Assembly: GCA_016184115.1 (NCBI GenBank)
Contig: JACPDH010000039.1
Coordinates: forward strand, 1-64,000
Direction: 5' to 3'
DNA from: Acidobacteriota bacterium
GTDB taxonomy: Bacteria > Acidobacteriota > Thermoanaerobaculia > Gp7-AA8
DNA: 64,000 bases
A program made the position numbers and the translations under genes. Numbering within the stretch: the first letter of the stretch is position 1; each line of letters starts with the position of its first letter. The notes beneath the pieces were generated by a model. That model searched no databases, was not told the origin of the DNA, and was given only the letters and a program-made list of their open reading frames with translations. This document shows, one piece after another, positions 29,761 to 64,000 of this stretch.

Positions 29761-29784
29761 GGGAACCAGGCTCGAGGCAGGTGG

Positions 29785-29963
29785 CTGTTGGTTGTTGGTT
29801 GTTGGTTGTTAGTTGTTAGCTGTTGGTTGTTAGACCAGTTTGGAAGGCTGCAGCTTCCTTGCTGTTTGCAGGAGCTCAATGCAACCGCTACAACTCCTGC
29901 AGCTATTCACGTTCGTCTAACAACTAACAACCAACAACTAACAACCAACAACTAACAACCAAC
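29785..29963. repeat. Heptad-word hairpin element A (GGTTGTT/AGTTGTT)
   Basis: Left arm 29785-29833 is a run of 7-nt words GGTTGTT, AGTTGTT, AGCTGTT. The right arm 29916-29963 carries the complementary words (AACAACC, AACAACT) so the two can pair for about 45 nt. The 82-nt centre has its own hairpins: GGAAGGCTGCAGCTTCC and TGCAGGAG pairing with CTCCTGCA. It sits between convergent genes, 24 nt after the PATAN stop and 21 nt from the ybeY stop. Confidence 0.85.
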
Positions 29964-41111: not shown

Positions 41112-41262
41112 AGTTGTTAGTTGTTGGTTGTTAGTTGTTAGGCAGTCAGCGTAGCCCGCTGAGACCGGCTCGATTCTCTCGTTCGCGAGACAGAATGAAA
41201 CCGGATCTTGCCAACCAGCGCTGGTTGTCCAACAACTAACAGCTAGCAACAAGCAACTAACG
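41112..41262. repeat. Heptad-word hairpin element B (AGTTGTT)
   Basis: Left arm 41112-41143 reads as 7-nt words AGTTGTT, AGTTGTT, GGTTGTT, AGTTGTT. Right arm 41229-41262 holds complementary but more diverged words (AACAACT, AACAGCT, AACAAGC). The centre (85 nt) has TCTCG-TTCG-CGAGA and the perfect palindrome CAACCAGCGCTGGTTG. It fills the gap between the convergent apbC and the 41268 gene, beginning 8 nt after one stop and ending 6 nt before the other. Same words as element A. Confidence 0.8.
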
Positions 41263-43800: not shown

Positions 43801-43970
43801 AAACGCGGAACGCGGAACTCGGAACGCGGAACTCGGAATGCGAAGCGCAGAATGTGCCGGAATCGTCGCTGGAAGCAAGGCACACGAAAACAAAAAGGAG
43901 AGAGCAAGCCATCGCTGGCTTCGCTGCTCTCTCCTTTTCGCGGTTTCGCGTTATGCGTTTCGCGTTTCTA
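43801..43970. repeat. Heptad-word hairpin element C (CGGAACG/CGAAACG)
   Basis: Left arm 43801-43850 is built of words CGGAACG, CGGAACT, CGGAATG in 7-nt register. The right arm 43936-43970 gives, on the opposite strand, CGAAACG, CATAACG and CGAAACC. The centre holds a strong stem, GGAGAGAGCA (43897-43906) with TGCTCTCTCC (43925-43934), capped by AGCCA-TCGC-TGGCT. The right arm includes the TAG stop of the H1-like gene. Confidence 0.8.
43888..43934 (-). terminator. Intrinsic terminator of the H1-like gene
   Basis: Read on the minus strand, the 10-bp stem at 43934-43897 with its capped loop is followed by CTTTTTGTTTTC. That is a good intrinsic terminator for the H1-like gene ending at 43968. 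It forms the centre of element C. A shorter T run (TTTT) on the plus side is also present. Confidence 0.75.
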
Positions 43971-47185: not shown

Positions 47186-47371
47186 GGCGAAGCGCTTCGC
47201 GAAATGCGAAATGCGGAACGCGGAATGTGGAGAGCGGAATCGGGCTGCCGGTTCGCGTGCGATGACGCCGGCTGCAGATGTTGCTCGTCTGATACGAGAG
47301 AGACGTCGCGGAAGAGTCAGCGGGGAACCGGAACGCCATTCCGCGATCCGCGATCCGAATTCCGCATTGAG
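47186..47371. repeat. Heptad-word hairpin element D (GCGGAAT/GCGAAAT)
   Basis: Left arm 47186-47244 runs GCGAAAT, GCGAAAT, GCGGAAC, GCGGAAT, GTGGAGA, GCGGAAT in 7-nt steps. Right arm 47331-47371 gives the reverse words CATTCCG, CGATCCG, CGATCCG, AATTCCG, CATTGAG. The centre contains GCCGG/CCGGC and CTCGT/ACGAG stems. It lies between the transglycosylase stop (47373) and the ileS promoter. Words resemble those of element C. Confidence 0.8.
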
Positions 47372-47372
47372 C

Positions 47373-48755
47373 CTAGAGCCCGCCGGCCGTGACCGCGTGT
47401 GTCACCGAGACTCGCAGCTTCTGGCCCGTCTTGAGAACGCTCTTTCGCGGGATGTTGTTCAGCGAGCGAAGCTCGTCGACCGAGAGGCCATGCCGTTTCG
47501 CGATTGCGAAGAGGGTTTCGCCCTTCTTTACCGTGTGGTACTTCGACTTTGGCTTCTGCGCGAGGCTCCTTGAAAGCTCAGTCTGGCTGACGGGCACCCA
47601 AATCGCGGCGCCCGTGCGCAGCTTGCCAACACCGCCGTTCATGGCGGAGATTGTCCGCGACTCGGCGCCCAGCTTCCTCGCGAGTGATTTGAGATTGTCG
47701 CCCTTGCGGACGGTGTAGCGCGCGACCTGCAGGTACGGGTCGTCCCCACGCAACGAGCCGGCTGAGTCGGCGACGCGGGAGGATGCGAACTTTGGGAGTC
47801 GCACTCGGATCGTTCCCGGAGGCGTGACTCCTCGGCGCAGCATTGGGTTGAGCTCACGGAGAAGGCGTTCCTCGATGCCGGCCGTCTCCGCGATGAACTT
47901 GAGCGATACGGGGCCGGAGATTGCGACCTCGACGGCGTCGTCGAGCTCCTTCACCGGCTCGCACAGCAGAAACCCGTGCGCTTCCGGCTGGCTAACGATC
48001 ATGAGCGTCGCGAAGAAGGTTGGCACGTAGCCGCGCGTTTCACGAGGGAGTGCTGCTTTGCTCGAAAGGTCCCAGAAATTCTCTGCGGCGTTGGCCGCGA
48101 GACTGCGCCTGACGCGTCCAGGTCCCGCGTTGTAGGAGGCGAGCGCAAGTGGCCAATCCTCGAACTTCGCGTGAAGGTCCTTGAGATAGCGTGCTGCCGC
48201 CCGCGTGGAGCGCTCAGGGTCGGCGCGCTCGTCGACCCACCAGTCGACGCGAAGGCCGTACTCCCGCGCGGTGGCGGGCATGAATTGCCACATTCCGTAC
48301 GCGCCGACACGAGAGACGTTCGAGGTGATGTAGCCGCTCTCGATCACGGGGAGATAGGCGAGGGCCCTAGGCAGCTCGTGCTCGTCGAGGATCGCGTCGA
48401 TCATTGCGCGGTAGCGCGTCGACCGGTCGAGTGAGGCCTGGATCCTCGGTTTGAGATCGGTCGAAAAAAGGTTCAGCGCGCCAAAGATCGAAGGATGGTC
48501 GGGAATCTCGATCGACGTCGCAGCTTCATAGTCGTCGATGATACCCGCCGCCGATTCCGCCTCACGCTCGACGATGAAGTCGTGAACGAGCACGAGCGCT
48601 TCGTTGAACTGGGCGACGTCTCCGTGGAGCATCGCAACGGGAGGCGCGACCGCAACTGGCACGGTTGCAGGCCGGGGTGCAGGCGTCGTGCTGTTCGAGG
48701 CGCAAGCGGCGAGCAGCAGCGAAACCCCCGCGATGGTCAGTTTCCTCACGATCAT
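47373..48755 (-). CDS. Membrane-bound lytic transglycosylase with two LysM domains (MltD-like)
   Basis: About 460 aa lipoprotein (IAGVSLLLAAC lipobox). Catalytic SLT domain: ALAYLPVIESGYITSNVSRVGAYGMWQFM, with the catalytic Glu in VIESGY, then LASYNAGPGRV. Two LysM domains near the C-terminus (YTVRKGDNLKSLARKLG and HTVKKGETLFAIAKRHGLSVDEL) bind peptidoglycan. I start at ATG 48755, which gives a clean signal; GTG 48776 is the alternative. Cleaves glycan strands in cell-wall turnover. Confidence 0.92.
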   Translation of the reverse strand: MIVRKLTIAGVSLLLAACASNSTTPAPRPATVPVAVAPPVAMLHGDVAQFNEALVLVHDFIVEREAESAAGIIDDYEAATSIEIPDHPSIFGALNLFSTDLKPRIQASLDRSTRYRAMIDAILDEHELPRALAYLPVIESGYITSNVSRVGAYGMWQFMPATAREYGLRVDWWVDERADPERSTRAAARYLKDLHAKFEDWPLALASYNAGPGRVRRSLAANAAENFWDLSSKAALPRETRGYVPTFFATLMIVSQPEAHGFLLCEPVKELDDAVEVAISGPVSLKFIAETAGIEERLLRELNPMLRRGVTPPGTIRVRLPKFASSRVADSAGSLRGDDPYLQVARYTVRKGDNLKSLARKLGAESRTISAMNGGVGKLRTGAAIWVPVSQTELSRSLAQKPKSKYHTVKKGETLFAIAKRHGLSVDELRSLNNIPRKSVLKTGQKLRVSVTHAVTAGGL

Positions 48756-56690: not shown

Positions 56691-57034
56691 AAGGGAGGCG
56701 AGAGGCGAGAGGCGAGAGGCGAGAGGCGAGAGGCGATGTACAGGCCCTCGGCGTGGATGCCTGCGGAGTTCATGCCTCGGCCAGCGAGAGTCAACGACCG
56801 GGCGCGGGTGCGGGCACGGGGTCGTTCACGTTCATTGGAGACGTCGCGGCGGGAAGCGCCTTCGCTCGCTGCGAGGCTCGCAGTTCCTTTTTGCCGAGTC
56901 CGTGCTGTGGCGCCAGGCTCTTCCCGTGAACGTGAACGAGCCCGCGCCCGAGCCCGGCCTTTCGTCCTCCCACCGATCCCGCAAGCCCGATTCTGCTTAT
57001 CGCCTCTCGCCTGTCGCCTCTCGCCTTCCCCGGA
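56691..57034. repeat. Nested hairpin element F (outer GAGGCGA heptads, inner CGGGCN/CGTTCA hexads)
   Basis: Outer left arm 56695-56736 is six perfect GAGGCGA units; outer right arm 57000-57027 is TCGCCTC, TCGCCTG, TCGCCTC, TCGCCTT, four complementary units. Inner left arm 56799-56834 reads CGGGCG, CGGGTG, CGGGCA, CGGGGT, CGTTCA, CGTTCA, and the inner right arm 56927-56956 gives TGAACG, TGAACG, AGCCCG, CGCCCG, AGCCCG. The innermost part (about 90 nt) has a small stem (GCGAGG/CCTCGC-like). It fills the 411-nt divergent gap. Confidence 0.9.
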
Positions 57035-60641: not shown

Positions 60642-61727
60642 CTACCCGTGCCGGATGTTCATGATGTCGCCGTCGGCGACGATGTAGCTTTTTCCTTCGA
60701 GGCGCCAATGTCCCGCATCTTTCGCCTTCGCGAACGAGCCGCCCGCGGCGATGAAGTCGTCGTAATGGACGACCTCGGCGCGGATGAACTTCGCGTAGAA
60801 GTCGGAGTGGATCACGCCGGCGGCATCTTGCGCCGTCATCCCCACGCGGATCGTCCAGGCGCGGCACTCGTCCTCGCCGACAGTCAGGAACGATTGCAGA
60901 CCCAACAGGGCGTACGCCTCGCGGATCAGCGTGTCGAGCGCCGACTCCTCGATTCCGTACTCGTCCATGAAGACGCGCGCCTCGTCGGGCGAGAGCGCCG
61001 AGATCTCCATATCGATCTTACCGAAAAATCCGAGGACTCGGGTGTGAAGTCCAGCTTTCGATGCCGCGATCCGCGAGACCTCCTCGTCCCGTATCGCTTG
61101 CTGGGTCTCGTCGAGGTTCAGCGCGATGAGCATCGGTTTGAGCGAGAGAAGCTGATAGGTCTTGAGAAGATGCAGTTCGTCCCTGCTCAGATCCTCGTTG
61201 CGCAGTGGTCTTTCCTGCTGGAGCGCGGCGAGGCACTTCTCGAGGACAGGAAGCTCCTTCTTCAGGAGCTCGTCCTGCGCGCGGCCGAGTTGCTTGTGAA
61301 TCTTTTCGATGCGTGGCTCGAGCACCGCCATGTCGGCGATGATGAACTCGGTGTCGAGGGTCGCGACGTCACGCAATGGGTCGACCGTCTTGTCGGGATG
61401 CGGAACCGTGTCGTCCTGGAAGAGCCGGACGACGTGGATCATGGCGTCGTTCGTCTTGACCGCGGAGAAGAAGCTCGTCGTGAATTGCGTCGTTCCTGTC
61501 GAACCCTTTTTCAGACCGACGACATCGACGAAGTCGATCGTCGCGTGAACGGTACTTTTCGGTTTGAAGATCTCCACGCTCTTCTCGAGGCGCGCGTCGG
61601 GGATCTTGACAATGCCGTGGTGTGGATCGCCTTTCGCGAGCGTCGCCGCGTCGATCTGCGTCTTCGTGACGGCTTGAAAAAGGGTCGATTTTCCGGAGAA
61701 AGGGAGTCCGACGATGCCGATCTGCAT
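60642..61727 (-). CDS. ychF: Ribosome-binding ATPase YchF
   Basis: 361 aa Obg-like P-loop protein that prefers ATP. Walker A GLPFSGKST, the modified G4 (LNLDETQ) and the RRRALxx-type end in the TGS domain (LIREAYALLGLQSFLTVGEDECRAW) match. The start has an upstream in-frame region without similarity; ATG 61727 gives MQIGIVGLPFSGKS. The C-terminal DFYAKFIRAEVVHYDDFIAAG is the YchF ending, close to the family's usual length. Confidence 0.95.
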   Translation of the reverse strand: MQIGIVGLPFSGKSTLFQAVTKTQIDAATLAKGDPHHGIVKIPDARLEKSVEIFKPKSTVHATIDFVDVVGLKKGSTGTTQFTTSFFSAVKTNDAMIHVVRLFQDDTVPHPDKTVDPLRDVATLDTEFIIADMAVLEPRIEKIHKQLGRAQDELLKKELPVLEKCLAALQQERPLRNEDLSRDELHLLKTYQLLSLKPMLIALNLDETQQAIRDEEVSRIAASKAGLHTRVLGFFGKIDMEISALSPDEARVFMDEYGIEESALDTLIREAYALLGLQSFLTVGEDECRAWTIRVGMTAQDAAGVIHSDFYAKFIRAEVVHYDDFIAAGGSFAKAKDAGHWRLEGKSYIVADGDIMNIRHG

Positions 61728-61766
61728 GACGTGAATACCTCGGATTGGGGACGTTATCGCAAAAGC

Positions 61767-61880
61767 AGGTCAAAGGTCATAGGTCAAAGGTCATCGCAGG
61801 CAGTGATTCTGCCCGGCCGATCCTCCGTTCTCCACTACTGCGCAAAGGTGACAGAAGATCTGCCTTTGACCTTTGACCTG
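61767..61880. repeat. Heptad-word hairpin element H (AGGTCAA/AGGTCAT)
   Basis: Left arm 61767-61794 is four units AGGTCAA, AGGTCAT, AGGTCAA, AGGTCAT. Right arm 61863-61880 (CCTTTGACCTTTGACCTG) is the complementary word about two and a half times. The 68-nt centre has GGCAG-TGATT-CTGCC. It lies between the divergent ychF and Rieske genes, so it is not a simple terminator. Confidence 0.8.
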
Positions 61881-61936
61881 CCGTGTGGCTGGAGTTTTCC
61901 CTCCGCCGCGGCTACCATGCGCTCCGCGGTCACCGC

Positions 61937-62269
61937 ATGAGCGAGTTTGAGAAGGTTGCTGATGTTGCCGAGCTCCCGGTTGGGAGCGTGAAGGCGTACG
62001 TCGTCGCGGGCCGAAAGCTGGCAGTCTGCCACACGGTCCGCGGATTCTTCGCAACGGACGATGCGTGTCCCCACCGAGGCGGTCCGCTGAGTGAAGGAGA
62101 CATTCTCGGCGACGAGATCGTCTGCCCATGGCACCTCTGGTCGTTTCGCCTCGACACCGGGGTGAACCCCTGCAGCCTGCCCGGGAACGAGATTCGTGTA
62201 CGTACACACGAAGTGCGCATCGAGGGTGACGCGATCCTGGTTCGCCTAACGAGAGAGGAACACCCGTGA
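61937..62269 (+). CDS. Rieske [2Fe-2S] ferredoxin-like protein
   Basis: 110 aa single Rieske domain. Ligands Cys44/His46 in CPHRGGPL and Cys63/His66 in CPWHLWSF match the low-potential NirD/BphF type. Likely an electron carrier or nitrite-reductase-like small subunit; no large subunit nearby. The GTG start of the hydrolase overlaps the stop (GTGA). The frame is open upstream to 61883, but the ATG at 61937 gives the usual Rieske N-terminus. Confidence 0.9.
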   Translation: MSEFEKVADVAELPVGSVKAYVVAGRKLAVCHTVRGFFATDDACPHRGGPLSEGDILGDEIVCPWHLWSFRLDTGVNPCSLPGNEIRVRTHEVRIEGDAILVRLTREEHP

Positions 62270-62904
62270 ATCCGAAGCCTCTGAAGCACATCGATCTGCA
62301 CTCCCAGGCGGGGCGCCTCGAGGCGCTCTACCGTCAGATCGACGAACCGCGCGGAGTCGCCGTCGTTTGCCATCCTCACCCATTGCACGGCGGGACTCTT
62401 CACAACAAAGTCGTTTTCCGCGCGAGCCGCGGACTCGAGCGGCAGAACGTGGCCACGTTGCGATTCAACTTCCGCGGCGCCGGAGCGAGCCAGGGACGGC
62501 ATGACAACGGTCAGGGCGAGCAACAGGACGTGGAGGCAGCGATCGATTGGATGCAGTCACGCCATAAGGGGGCGAAGCTCTTTCTCGCGGGCTTCTCCTT
62601 TGGTGCCTGGGTTGCGAGCCGTGTTGCCTGGTCGCGTGACGATGTCGCCGCGATGGTCCTCATCGGTTCGCCGGTAAACAAGTACGACATGAGCTACATT
62701 CGTCACGCGCCGCAGCCGATCCTCTTCCTGCATGGTTCGGACGACGAGCATGGCGACGTCGACAAACTGGCGAAGATCGTCGAGGGGTGCCGCAACGCCG
62801 AGCTCATCGTCGTCAACGGCGCCGACCACTTCTTCAAGAACCAGGTGGAGATTGTCGAAGAGACGGTCTCCGAGTGGATCGGGGAAGTGTTAGGGAAGAA
62901 GTAG
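62266..62904 (+). CDS. Alpha/beta hydrolase
   Basis: 212 aa. Nucleophile Ser in LAGFSFGAWVAS, catalytic Asp in HGSDDEHGD and His in GADHFFKN. The N-terminal VCHPHPLHGGTLHNKVVFRASRGLERQ resembles the family annotated as dienelactone hydrolase-like. It is translationally coupled to the Rieske gene by 4 nt. The TAG stop overlaps the first unit of element I. Substrate unknown. Confidence 0.88.
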   Translation: MNPKPLKHIDLHSQAGRLEALYRQIDEPRGVAVVCHPHPLHGGTLHNKVVFRASRGLERQNVATLRFNFRGAGASQGRHDNGQGEQQDVEAAIDWMQSRHKGAKLFLAGFSFGAWVASRVAWSRDDVAAMVLIGSPVNKYDMSYIRHAPQPILFLHGSDDEHGDVDKLAKIVEGCRNAELIVVNGADHFFKNQVEIVEETVSEWIGEVLGKK

Positions 62905-63255
62905 TCCTGAGTCCTGAGTCCTGAGTCCCGAGTCCTGGGTCCTGAGTCCTAGGTCCTGAGTCTTGAATCCTGCGTTCAGAGTCCCGAGTCCTCCGCCCGG
63001 GATCCTGAGTCGGGAGTTTGCCGAGTGGCAGGGAGAGCGGAACAAGAGGAACGGACTCCCGTCCCAGGGTCTGGTCCGCCCTGCTCCTCGTTGCCTGCTG
63101 GCACAGATTTTTCTCGGCATTGAGGACTTAGGACTTAGGACTTAGGACTGAGGACTTAGGGCTTAGGACTGAGGACTAAGGACTAAGAACTAAGAACTAA
63201 GAACTAAGGACTAGGGACTTAGGACTTAGGACTGAGGACCTAGGACTGAGGACTT
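62903..63255. repeat. Heptad-word hairpin element I (AGTCCTG / AGGACTT)
   Basis: Left arm 62903-63021 is 17 consecutive 7-nt units (AGTCCTG, AGTCCCG, GGTCCTG, AGTCTTG, CGTTCAG, AGTCCTC, GATCCTG and so on) with no shift of register. Right arm 63123-63255 is 19 units (AGGACTT, AGGACTG, AGGACTA, AGAACTA, GGGACTT, AGGACCT) in perfect register. The words of the arms are mutually complementary apart from a C-to-T change. The 100-nt centre is purine-rich with partial stems. The arms end at the stop codons of both flanking convergent genes. Confidence 0.93.
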
Positions 63256-64000
63256 ACTTAAGCGATTTCAGCCTCGTCTTCGCTTCACCGTTTTCCGGCT
63301 CGATCGCGATGACGTCCTCGTAGCAGGCGCGGGCTCGCGCACTCAGTCCCGCGTTCCGATAGAGGTCGCCGAGCGTGAGAATCGCCTCGGTGAAGTTGGG
63401 GTTCGCCGAGATCGCCCGCTGCAGGCTCTCCATCGCCTCGCGCTTCCAGTGGGGGTTCTTCTGCTGGCAAGTCGATAGCAGGAACCAGGCGTCGGCGTGG
63501 TCGGGAACATAGGTGACCGTCTGACGCAGAAGCATCATGGCTCCGTGGTAGTCGCCAGCAACGACGAGCTCCCGCGCCTTCGCGAAGTTCGACTCGGCGA
63601 TGTTACGGCGGGCGAGCATCTTGTGCACTGCGCGGACGTCGCTCCCGCGTCCCTGCGCCATCAGGCGGTCGTACTCAGCGCGTTTTGCCGTGTTCGTCAA
63701 CACGTCATGAGCGCGGTCGAGGGTATGAACCGTTTCGTTGAGCAGGGGGCGGAGGATCAGCGGGAAGCTGACCGGATCGAACATCTTTCGCAGCTTTTCG
63801 TAGTTGCTGACGATGTTGGAACGAGTCGCTCCCTTGGGAAGGTCGAGGAGCGTGTAGTAGTCGCTCCGTTCGGCGTGCCGAGCGAAGGCGAAGGCGCGGA
63901 GGGATCGTTCGTCGGTAGTTCCGAGCGCCGACATGATCGCGAGATCGCGCTCCGAGCGCTCCACCAGCTCGCGATCGTCTTGCTCAGGTTCGGGGCCTTC
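63254..64000 (-). CDS. J-domain-like and TPR protein, truncated by the window edge
   Basis: The frame is open from the TAA at 63254 to the window edge and continues to its 5' end beyond 64000. Residues DYYTLLDLPKGATRSNIVSNYEKLRKMFDP form a DnaJ-like helical hairpin, but the HPD tripeptide is absent. Two or three TPR units follow (ARELVVAGDYHGAMMLLRQTVTYVPDHADAWFLLS, LGDLYRNAGLSARARACYEDVIAIEPENGEA). It may be part of a larger PATAN or kinase-associated protein. The stop codon lies within the last unit of element I. Confidence 0.65.
   Translation of the reverse strand, partial: EGPEPEQDDRELVERSERDLAIMSALGTTDERSLRAFAFARHAERSDYYTLLDLPKGATRSNIVSNYEKLRKMFDPVSFPLILRPLLNETVHTLDRAHDVLTNTAKRAEYDRLMAQGRGSDVRAVHKMLARRNIAESNFAKARELVVAGDYHGAMMLLRQTVTYVPDHADAWFLLSTCQQKNPHWKREAMESLQRAISANPNFTEAILTLGDLYRNAGLSARARACYEDVIAIEPENGEAKTRLKSLK

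Follow-up and report, generated by a model that had tools for sequence, protein, structure and literature searches.

Inverted heptad arms that match S23 genes point to a possible, overlooked mobile-element family behind the 7-nt repeats of cyanobacteria and other bacteria

A 64,000-nucleotide stretch of a Thermoanaerobaculia (Acidobacteriota) genome (contig JACPDH010000039.1, assembly GCA_016184115.1; hereafter the window) contains, in the gap between two convergent genes, two facing arrays of tandem 7-nt units (heptads) that we refer to as element I. Our working hypothesis, built on sequence comparisons, is that element I is probably a copy of an S23 element that lacks the gene, is old, and has grown by slippage, i.e. 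a non-autonomous copy resembling a miniature inverted-repeat transposable element (MITE). In a complete S23 element, each arm usually consists of 4–5 heptads, and a single S23 gene lies between the arms. More generally, inverted heptad arms that match S23 genes suggest that an overlooked group of mobile elements underlies the 7-nt repeats of cyanobacteria and other bacteria. The parts of element I, defined from the sequence and, for the arms, with Tandem Repeats Finder (TRF), are:

62903..63021, + strand: arm 1, 17 heptads, 119 bp, consensus AGTCCTG
63022..63122, no strand: spacer, 101 bp between the arms
63123..63255, - strand: arm 2, 19 heptads, 133 bp, reading AGGACTT on the + strand

The first-pass annotation of this DNA had described 17 plus 19 heptads in unbroken 7-nt register with substitutions and without insertions or deletions (indels), and both descriptions hold for element I. 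Specifically, 17 x 7 gives 119 bp and 19 x 7 gives 133 bp, the TRF scores (110 for arm 1 and 156 for arm 2) are far above chance, and profile alignment yields no indel in either arm, with 16 substitutions over the 99 scored positions of arm 1 and 6 over the 114 of arm 2. Arm 1 is pure at its outer (gene) end and degenerates inward, with the last 4–5 units strongly decayed while phase is kept. Missing from that account was the inverted relation of the two arrays: arm 2 is an inverted copy of the arm 1 heptad (NAGTCCT on the - strand) and, therefore, the gap can form a single long hairpin (-205 kcal/mol, z -7.8). The spacer itself folds into an imperfect hairpin (GCCGAG...CTCGGC plus a GAGGA/TCCTC stem; core folding z = -1.2), contains no match to an S23 gene, and, like the rest of 61500-64000, has no match in Rfam. 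Element I also differs from three familiar classes of sequence: its units (AGTCCTN/NAGGACT) reach GG at most, while quadruplex-forming heptads take four tracts of at least three G; they are head-to-tail 7-nt units and not the 21–40-nt repeats with unique spacers of a CRISPR array; and they lie between two protein genes and not inside an rRNA gene, as an rRNA intervening sequence (IVS) would.

The link to S23 rests on genes enclosed by such arms. In the first case, an inverted pair at C59 of the window genome (G000) encloses a small S23 gene (PF05635, "four helix bundle", 23S_rRNA_IVP). Among 82 PF05635 loci from 15 Thermoanaerobaculia genomes and from plasmids of Cyanobacteriota (Nostoc, Calothrix, Anabaena, Trichormus, Geminocystis, Pseudanabaena, Picosynechococcus, Stanieria, and Leptolyngbya), Bacteroidota (Riemerella), Alphaproteobacteria (Azospirillum), and Gemmatimonadota (Gemmatirosa), the gene is bracketed by tandem units in inverted orientation in 76, typically within ~50–100 bp. 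The units of these 76 armed loci are mostly 7 nt long (n = 59), the remainder being 8 nt (n = 13), 6 nt (n = 2), or 9 nt (n = 2). The inverted-repeat score has a median of 26 at S23 loci versus 9 in random windows of sequence (99th percentile 12.5), and arms were present at 10 of the 12 canonical S23 genes of an out-of-sample set. Two S23 genes of G000, one with AGTCCTG arms (C59:38113, L143) and one with AGTGCTG/AGTCCTG arms (C106:148534, L128), document that a cognate gene with the heptad and polarity of element I is present in the same genome. Young gene-less elements are often hairpins of 75–85 bp with ~4.3 units per arm; because element I has 17 and 19 partly degenerate units, it would be an expanded old copy.

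Several comparisons tie dispersed arrays to the S23 genes of the genome in which they lie. GGTTAAC arrays gave 445 and 35 hits in the two genomes that have this heptad at their S23, 6 and 1 hits in two other genomes, and none in 17; GATGAAC has a broadly similar genome specificity, and TAGGGAG was found in one of six cyanobacterial plasmids, namely the one whose S23 has TAGGGAG. In genomes that have a heptad in common but carry it in opposite polarity in their S23 elements, the dispersed pairs take the polarity of the resident element. At an S23 site common to seven genomes, as judged from shared flanks, the arms are AGTGCTG/AGTACTG-like in six and GAGGACT in G003, and the dispersed pairs of G003 are likewise AGGACTG. 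Across loci, S23 genes with units of equal length group together on the S23 tree (for the 7- and 8-nt groups, 0 of 500 shuffles were as low), and arms are more alike where the S23 proteins are (Mantel r 0.35 with a permutation maximum of 0.10). In 400 kb from ten S23-positive genomes we counted 42 period-7 and 17 period-8 arrays, and none of either period in 400 kb from 15 genomes without S23, which represent five families and of which 9 belong to one genus. G000 itself was surveyed by sampled stretches, of which 663 kb had been chosen without regard to repeats. This sample contains 33 period-7 arrays and 0–3 for each of periods 4, 5, 6, 8, 9, 10, and 11; in 660 kb of G000, which has no 8-mer S23, there were no period-8 arrays. 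Neighboring arrays are inverted in eight cases and direct in one in the unbiased sample, and inverted in 18 and direct in none, with two ambiguous, in a set selected for AGTCCTN. Palindromic AGTACTN variants occur as single arrays, which lack an inverted partner because AGTACTN is its own inverse. Long lone AGTACTN arrays with no inverted partner lie at L017 4019-4262, L024 3855-4043, and L027 35-327.

We also considered that S23 might be a nucleic-acid-binding regulator or an organizer of the chromosome or of RNA, in which case the dispersed pairs would be selected, immobile binding sites that are autoregulatory at the S23 genes. Such a regulon would predict the match between an S23 and its heptad equally well, and the joint change of arms and dispersed pairs at conserved S23 sites as well as the S23 sites common to seven genomes speak for it. 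The same is true of the composition of the unit: positions 4 and 7 of AGTCCTN vary freely and the remaining positions are ~85–93% conserved, the pattern one would expect of a unit that is read by some factor. What makes a regulon unlikely in our judgment is the distribution of the elements. There is no evident theme among the flanking genes, and array number and degeneracy are lineage-specific. In two Nostoc plasmids with ~90% identity in the surrounding sequence, different S23 elements occupy two junctions of a single operon, and each junction is empty in the other plasmid (a 3-bp gap and an overlapping TAATG, respectively), i.e. the sites are reciprocally filled and empty, which also counts in favor of mobile S23 elements. 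Likewise, one gene-less pair of G003 has no counterpart at the orthologous position of another genome, and two genomes have different heptad families in one orthologous gap. Finally, armed S23 genes lie between cas10 and cmr3, between cas6 and cas4, and between ribonucleotide reductase genes, and such positions in plasmid cas and ribonucleotide reductase loci speak against a regulon.

A number of observations weigh against S23 genes and heptad pairs being mobile elements. Target-site duplications are suggestive only: the mean shared word is 3.23 versus 2.92 (sd 0.12), and an exact duplication of 5–7 bp is present in two cases only. A number of S23 loci have been passed on in place, and thus movement is not frequent everywhere, and the movement of gene-less pairs is visible only as presence or absence in few cases. 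A divergent PF05635 subgroup ('...ADQLVRSASSVPSNLAEG...GSARE') in the out-of-sample set has no arms, the 97%-complete assembly contains no S23 gene that matches AACAACN, AGGTCAN, or GAGGCGN, three heptad families of the window, and we know of no catalytic activity of S23. The weight of a single genus in the S23-negative sample counts on the same side. Separately, we observed that the divergent subgroup (L249-L252, L255, L256, L259, L264) has many copies in G034, near low-complexity hexamer tracts.

The two genes that flank element I are:

62266..62904, + strand: alpha/beta hydrolase gene (dienelactone-hydrolase-like), stop codon TAG overlapping arm 1
63254..63964, - strand: convergent DnaJ plus TPR gene, stop codon TAA overlapping arm 2

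The outer end of arm 1 is overlapped by TAG at 62902-62904 and that of arm 2 by TAA (complement of 63254-63256), bearing out the earlier observation that the array ends coincide with stop codons. This coincidence is best taken to reflect siting at gene boundaries rather than a property of the arrays themselves. The arrays of G000 are intergenic, their arms mostly adjoin gene ends, and their spacers are mutually unrelated. A check of unit count and phase in a sister genome, which the first-pass annotation had proposed, was possible in G001 (record JAMPYE010000181.1, a metagenome-assembled genome of the Thermoanaerobaculia, Acidobacteriota). The orthologous gap of G001 has the identical heptad in identical phase with both stop codons, with 3 and ~5 units and a spacer that is largely different from that of G000. 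Thus, units are gained or lost whole and phase is kept, and the site is filled in both genomes. The siting between convergent genes also raises the possibility that element I is a bidirectional terminator or an mRNA-stabilizing hairpin that is kept for that role. Its hairpin is long and stable (z -7.8) and array-free convergent gaps in G000 are strongly structured as well (median z -2.1); however, similar pairs are found between tandem and divergent genes, and the region has 2 terminator-like sites versus 0.7 expected, of which the sole one in the element is weak and confined to the - strand of the spacer. This explanation also leaves the heptads and S23 unexplained, and we consider it very improbable. 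As a probable copy of an S23 element, element I now forms a long hairpin between convergent genes and may incidentally act as a two-way barrier to transcription.

In 50 AGTCCTN arrays we counted 4 indels versus 500 substitutions, a count that includes substitutions spread by slippage so that the ratio of events is above 0.008. Consequently, the earlier statement that indels are not tolerated is correct for element I and almost, though not quite, correct genome-wide. The idea that the arrays are ordinary intergenic microsatellites shaped by neutral slippage, with no dedicated protein, is disfavored and scarcely credible: slippage surely lengthens arrays, unit counts differ between sister genomes, and adjacent units share variants slightly more often than when shuffled (0.52 versus 0.455), but only period 7 is found, plus 6, 8, and 9 where such S23s exist, and the inverted pairing, the per-genome polarity, the S23 association, and the absence from S23-negative genomes are left unexplained.

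The first-pass annotation had suggested that the 7-nt spacing is preserved by a protein that binds the array or by template copying. The protein is favored by the S23 tie, in which unit length and arm sequence track S23, and template copying is not: the order of variants is not mirrored between arms, mirrored runs of identical units having a mean maximum length of 2.15 versus 2.25 with the order reversed, and no match to the RVT_1 reverse transcriptase was found in G000. A backward-pattern control was uninformative because AGTCCTG is mirror-symmetric. The fold is given by a solved homolog, the Xanthomonas S23 structure 2GSC (E 5e-14), in which four-helix bundles form a homopentameric ring (Lin et al. 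2006 cited in PMC4990558). In the S23 alignment, Q36, R39, S43, N47, E50, and E78 (numbered by alignment column) are conserved. We infer that a pentameric ring of this type could contact several tandem units at once, with contacts one unit apart, and, therefore, that the spacing would be set by the protein and the sequence only in part. Arms that fall out of phase would be lost while base changes and gains or losses of whole units would be tolerated. That S23 probably reads tandem units at fixed spacing fits the near-absence of indels, the preferred number of units, and the clade-specific spacing. Arms measure 30 nt for 7-mers, 33–34 nt for 8-mers, and ~33 nt for the few 9-mer arms, lengths that are uncertain in metagenome assemblies; five contacts per arm by a pentamer would suit the 7- and 8-mer arms (4 units plus 1–2 nt) but not the 9-mer arms, and we therefore set this idea aside as speculative.

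If bound in this way, S23 might mobilize hairpins with cognate arms both in cis and in trans, with catalysis provided by S23 itself or by a host factor. HUH transposases of the Y1 type are candidates: they are present in all S23-positive genomes searched, with 8 Y1_Tnp matches in G000. Direct linkage to them was not seen in the two stretches inspected, C19 and C34, which are the sites of two of the 8 matches and contain no heptad array. A reverse transcriptase acting in trans is unlikely, given that most of the repeat-rich relatives of G000 also lack an RVT_1 match. We also rejected the spacer as a conserved mobile core or structured RNA, as spacers are unrelated, the median core z is ~0, and the spacer of element I has no Rfam match.

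Heptad families other than AGTCCTN coexist with it in G000 (GCGGAAN, AACAACN, GAGGCGN, and AGGTCAN), and those of the window outside element I (AACAACN, AACGCGG, GCGGAAN, GAGGCGN, and AGGTCAN) mostly form inverted pairs:

29768..29963, no strand: inverted heptad pair GGTTGTT ... AACAACC, between convergent genes
41112-41141 and 43802-43838: further heptad arrays
47199..47380, no strand: inverted heptad pair GCGGAAN ... NTTCCGC, whose heptad matches the S23 gene G000:C106:4912
56695..57026, no strand: inverted heptad pair GAGGCGA ... TCGCCTC, present also at the corresponding place of the sister genome
~56799-56834 and 56927-56957: inner hexamer pair CGGGCG/TTCACG within the GAGGCGA pair, resembling units around the S23 gene G000:C9:8119
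61767-61793: AGGTCAN array in the YchF/Rieske gap

The inner hexamer pair was not seen in the GAGGCGA copy of the sister genome. In the YchF/Rieske gap, where the window has the AGGTCAN array (61767-61793), the sister genome has a GAGGCGA inverted pair (L030 219-300). Elsewhere, the bases on either side of a heptad pair at L230 19416-19550 are perfect inverted copies of each other (TGGCCAGCACCA / TGGTGCTGGCCA), which would fit insertion of the element into the loop of a pre-existing hairpin, and at L111 2042-2160 an AGGACTG pair surrounds a second inverted repeat (TCATTCCGAGC...GCTCGGAATGA), so that the elements appear nested.

Intergenic heptad repeats of bacteria, i.e. the short tandemly repeated repetitive sequences (STRRs) of cyanobacteria, the GGGNATC repeats, and the paired repeats of Geobacter, have been on record for decades without an agreed origin, and S23 or "four helix bundle" proteins are widely annotated without an assigned function. 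In the open-access literature we found no paper that joins S23 with heptad repeats. A link between the two offers a common and testable explanation in which each S23 should bind its own heptad. In its widest form, which we regard as plausible if slightly on the doubtful side, S23 elements would be a categorically new, phylum-spanning type of minimal mobile element in which a pentameric ring of four-helix bundles, without a known recombinase domain, recognizes tandem units of 6–9 nt in both arms and moves the hairpin. They would then be the source of most bacterial intergenic inverted tandem-heptad repeats, STRRs and the Xanthomonas GGGAATC pairs included, and the IVS and the Avd protein of diversity-generating retroelements (DGRs) would be specialized relatives.

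The STRRs, reportedly described by Mazel et al. in 1990 with their origin given as unknown, are dispersed heptanucleotide arrays like those analyzed here, and inverted arrays of this type flank S23 genes on plasmids of Nostoc, Calothrix, Anabaena, and others; unlike here, they were described as repeats and not as the arms of a gene-carrying element. The GGGNATC heptameric repeats of Xanthomonas and Nostoc are 7-nt tandem intergenic units with a mode of four units, and X. campestris has 70 convergent inverted heptamer pairs (Rehm et al. 2015, PMC4692102). They share with element I tandem heptads with fixed and free positions, an intergenic location, and inverted pairing, and X. campestris is the species of 2GSC; however, they were explained by G-quadruplexes, whereas AGTCCTG has no GGG tract, and the link to S23 was not made. 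The paired hepta- and octanucleotide "global regulator binding sites" of Geobacter metallireducens (PMC2700814) are similarly tandem 7- or 8-nt units in opposite-strand pairs at variable distance, but were read as regulator sites with no S23 gene reported between them. In the 23S rRNA IVS with an S23 open reading frame, the gene lies between complementary stem-forming ends and the whole is regarded as a selfish element (PMC4990558). The S23 elements described here share the gene between complementary ends and differ in being intergenic rather than inside rRNA genes, in having arms of tandem units, and in having many gene-less copies. The latter feature, one repeat-flanked gene plus many dispersed gene-less inverted pairs, recalls the repetitive extragenic palindromic (REP) sequences and REPtrons with their REP-associated tyrosine transposase (RAYT); yet the gene here is S23 and not a Y1 transposase, and the repeats are tandem heptads and not GTAG- or CGTC-tagged palindromes. 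Avd of DGRs is homologous to PF05635 (PMC10053308), but G000 has neither a detectable reverse transcriptase nor template and variable repeats. Lastly, some cas loci contain 23S_rRNA_IVP genes, which lie between Cmr2 and Cmr3 or in the vicinity of Cas4/Cas6 and have been read as CRISPR-associated (PMC3936711). The family is identical to that studied here, and in our set L193, L201, and L204 are S23 genes with inverted arms within CRISPR-cas operons of cyanobacterial plasmids (cas10/cmr3, cas6/cas4). The flanking inverted arrays suggest that such genes are to be read as inserted elements rather than as CRISPR accessory genes.
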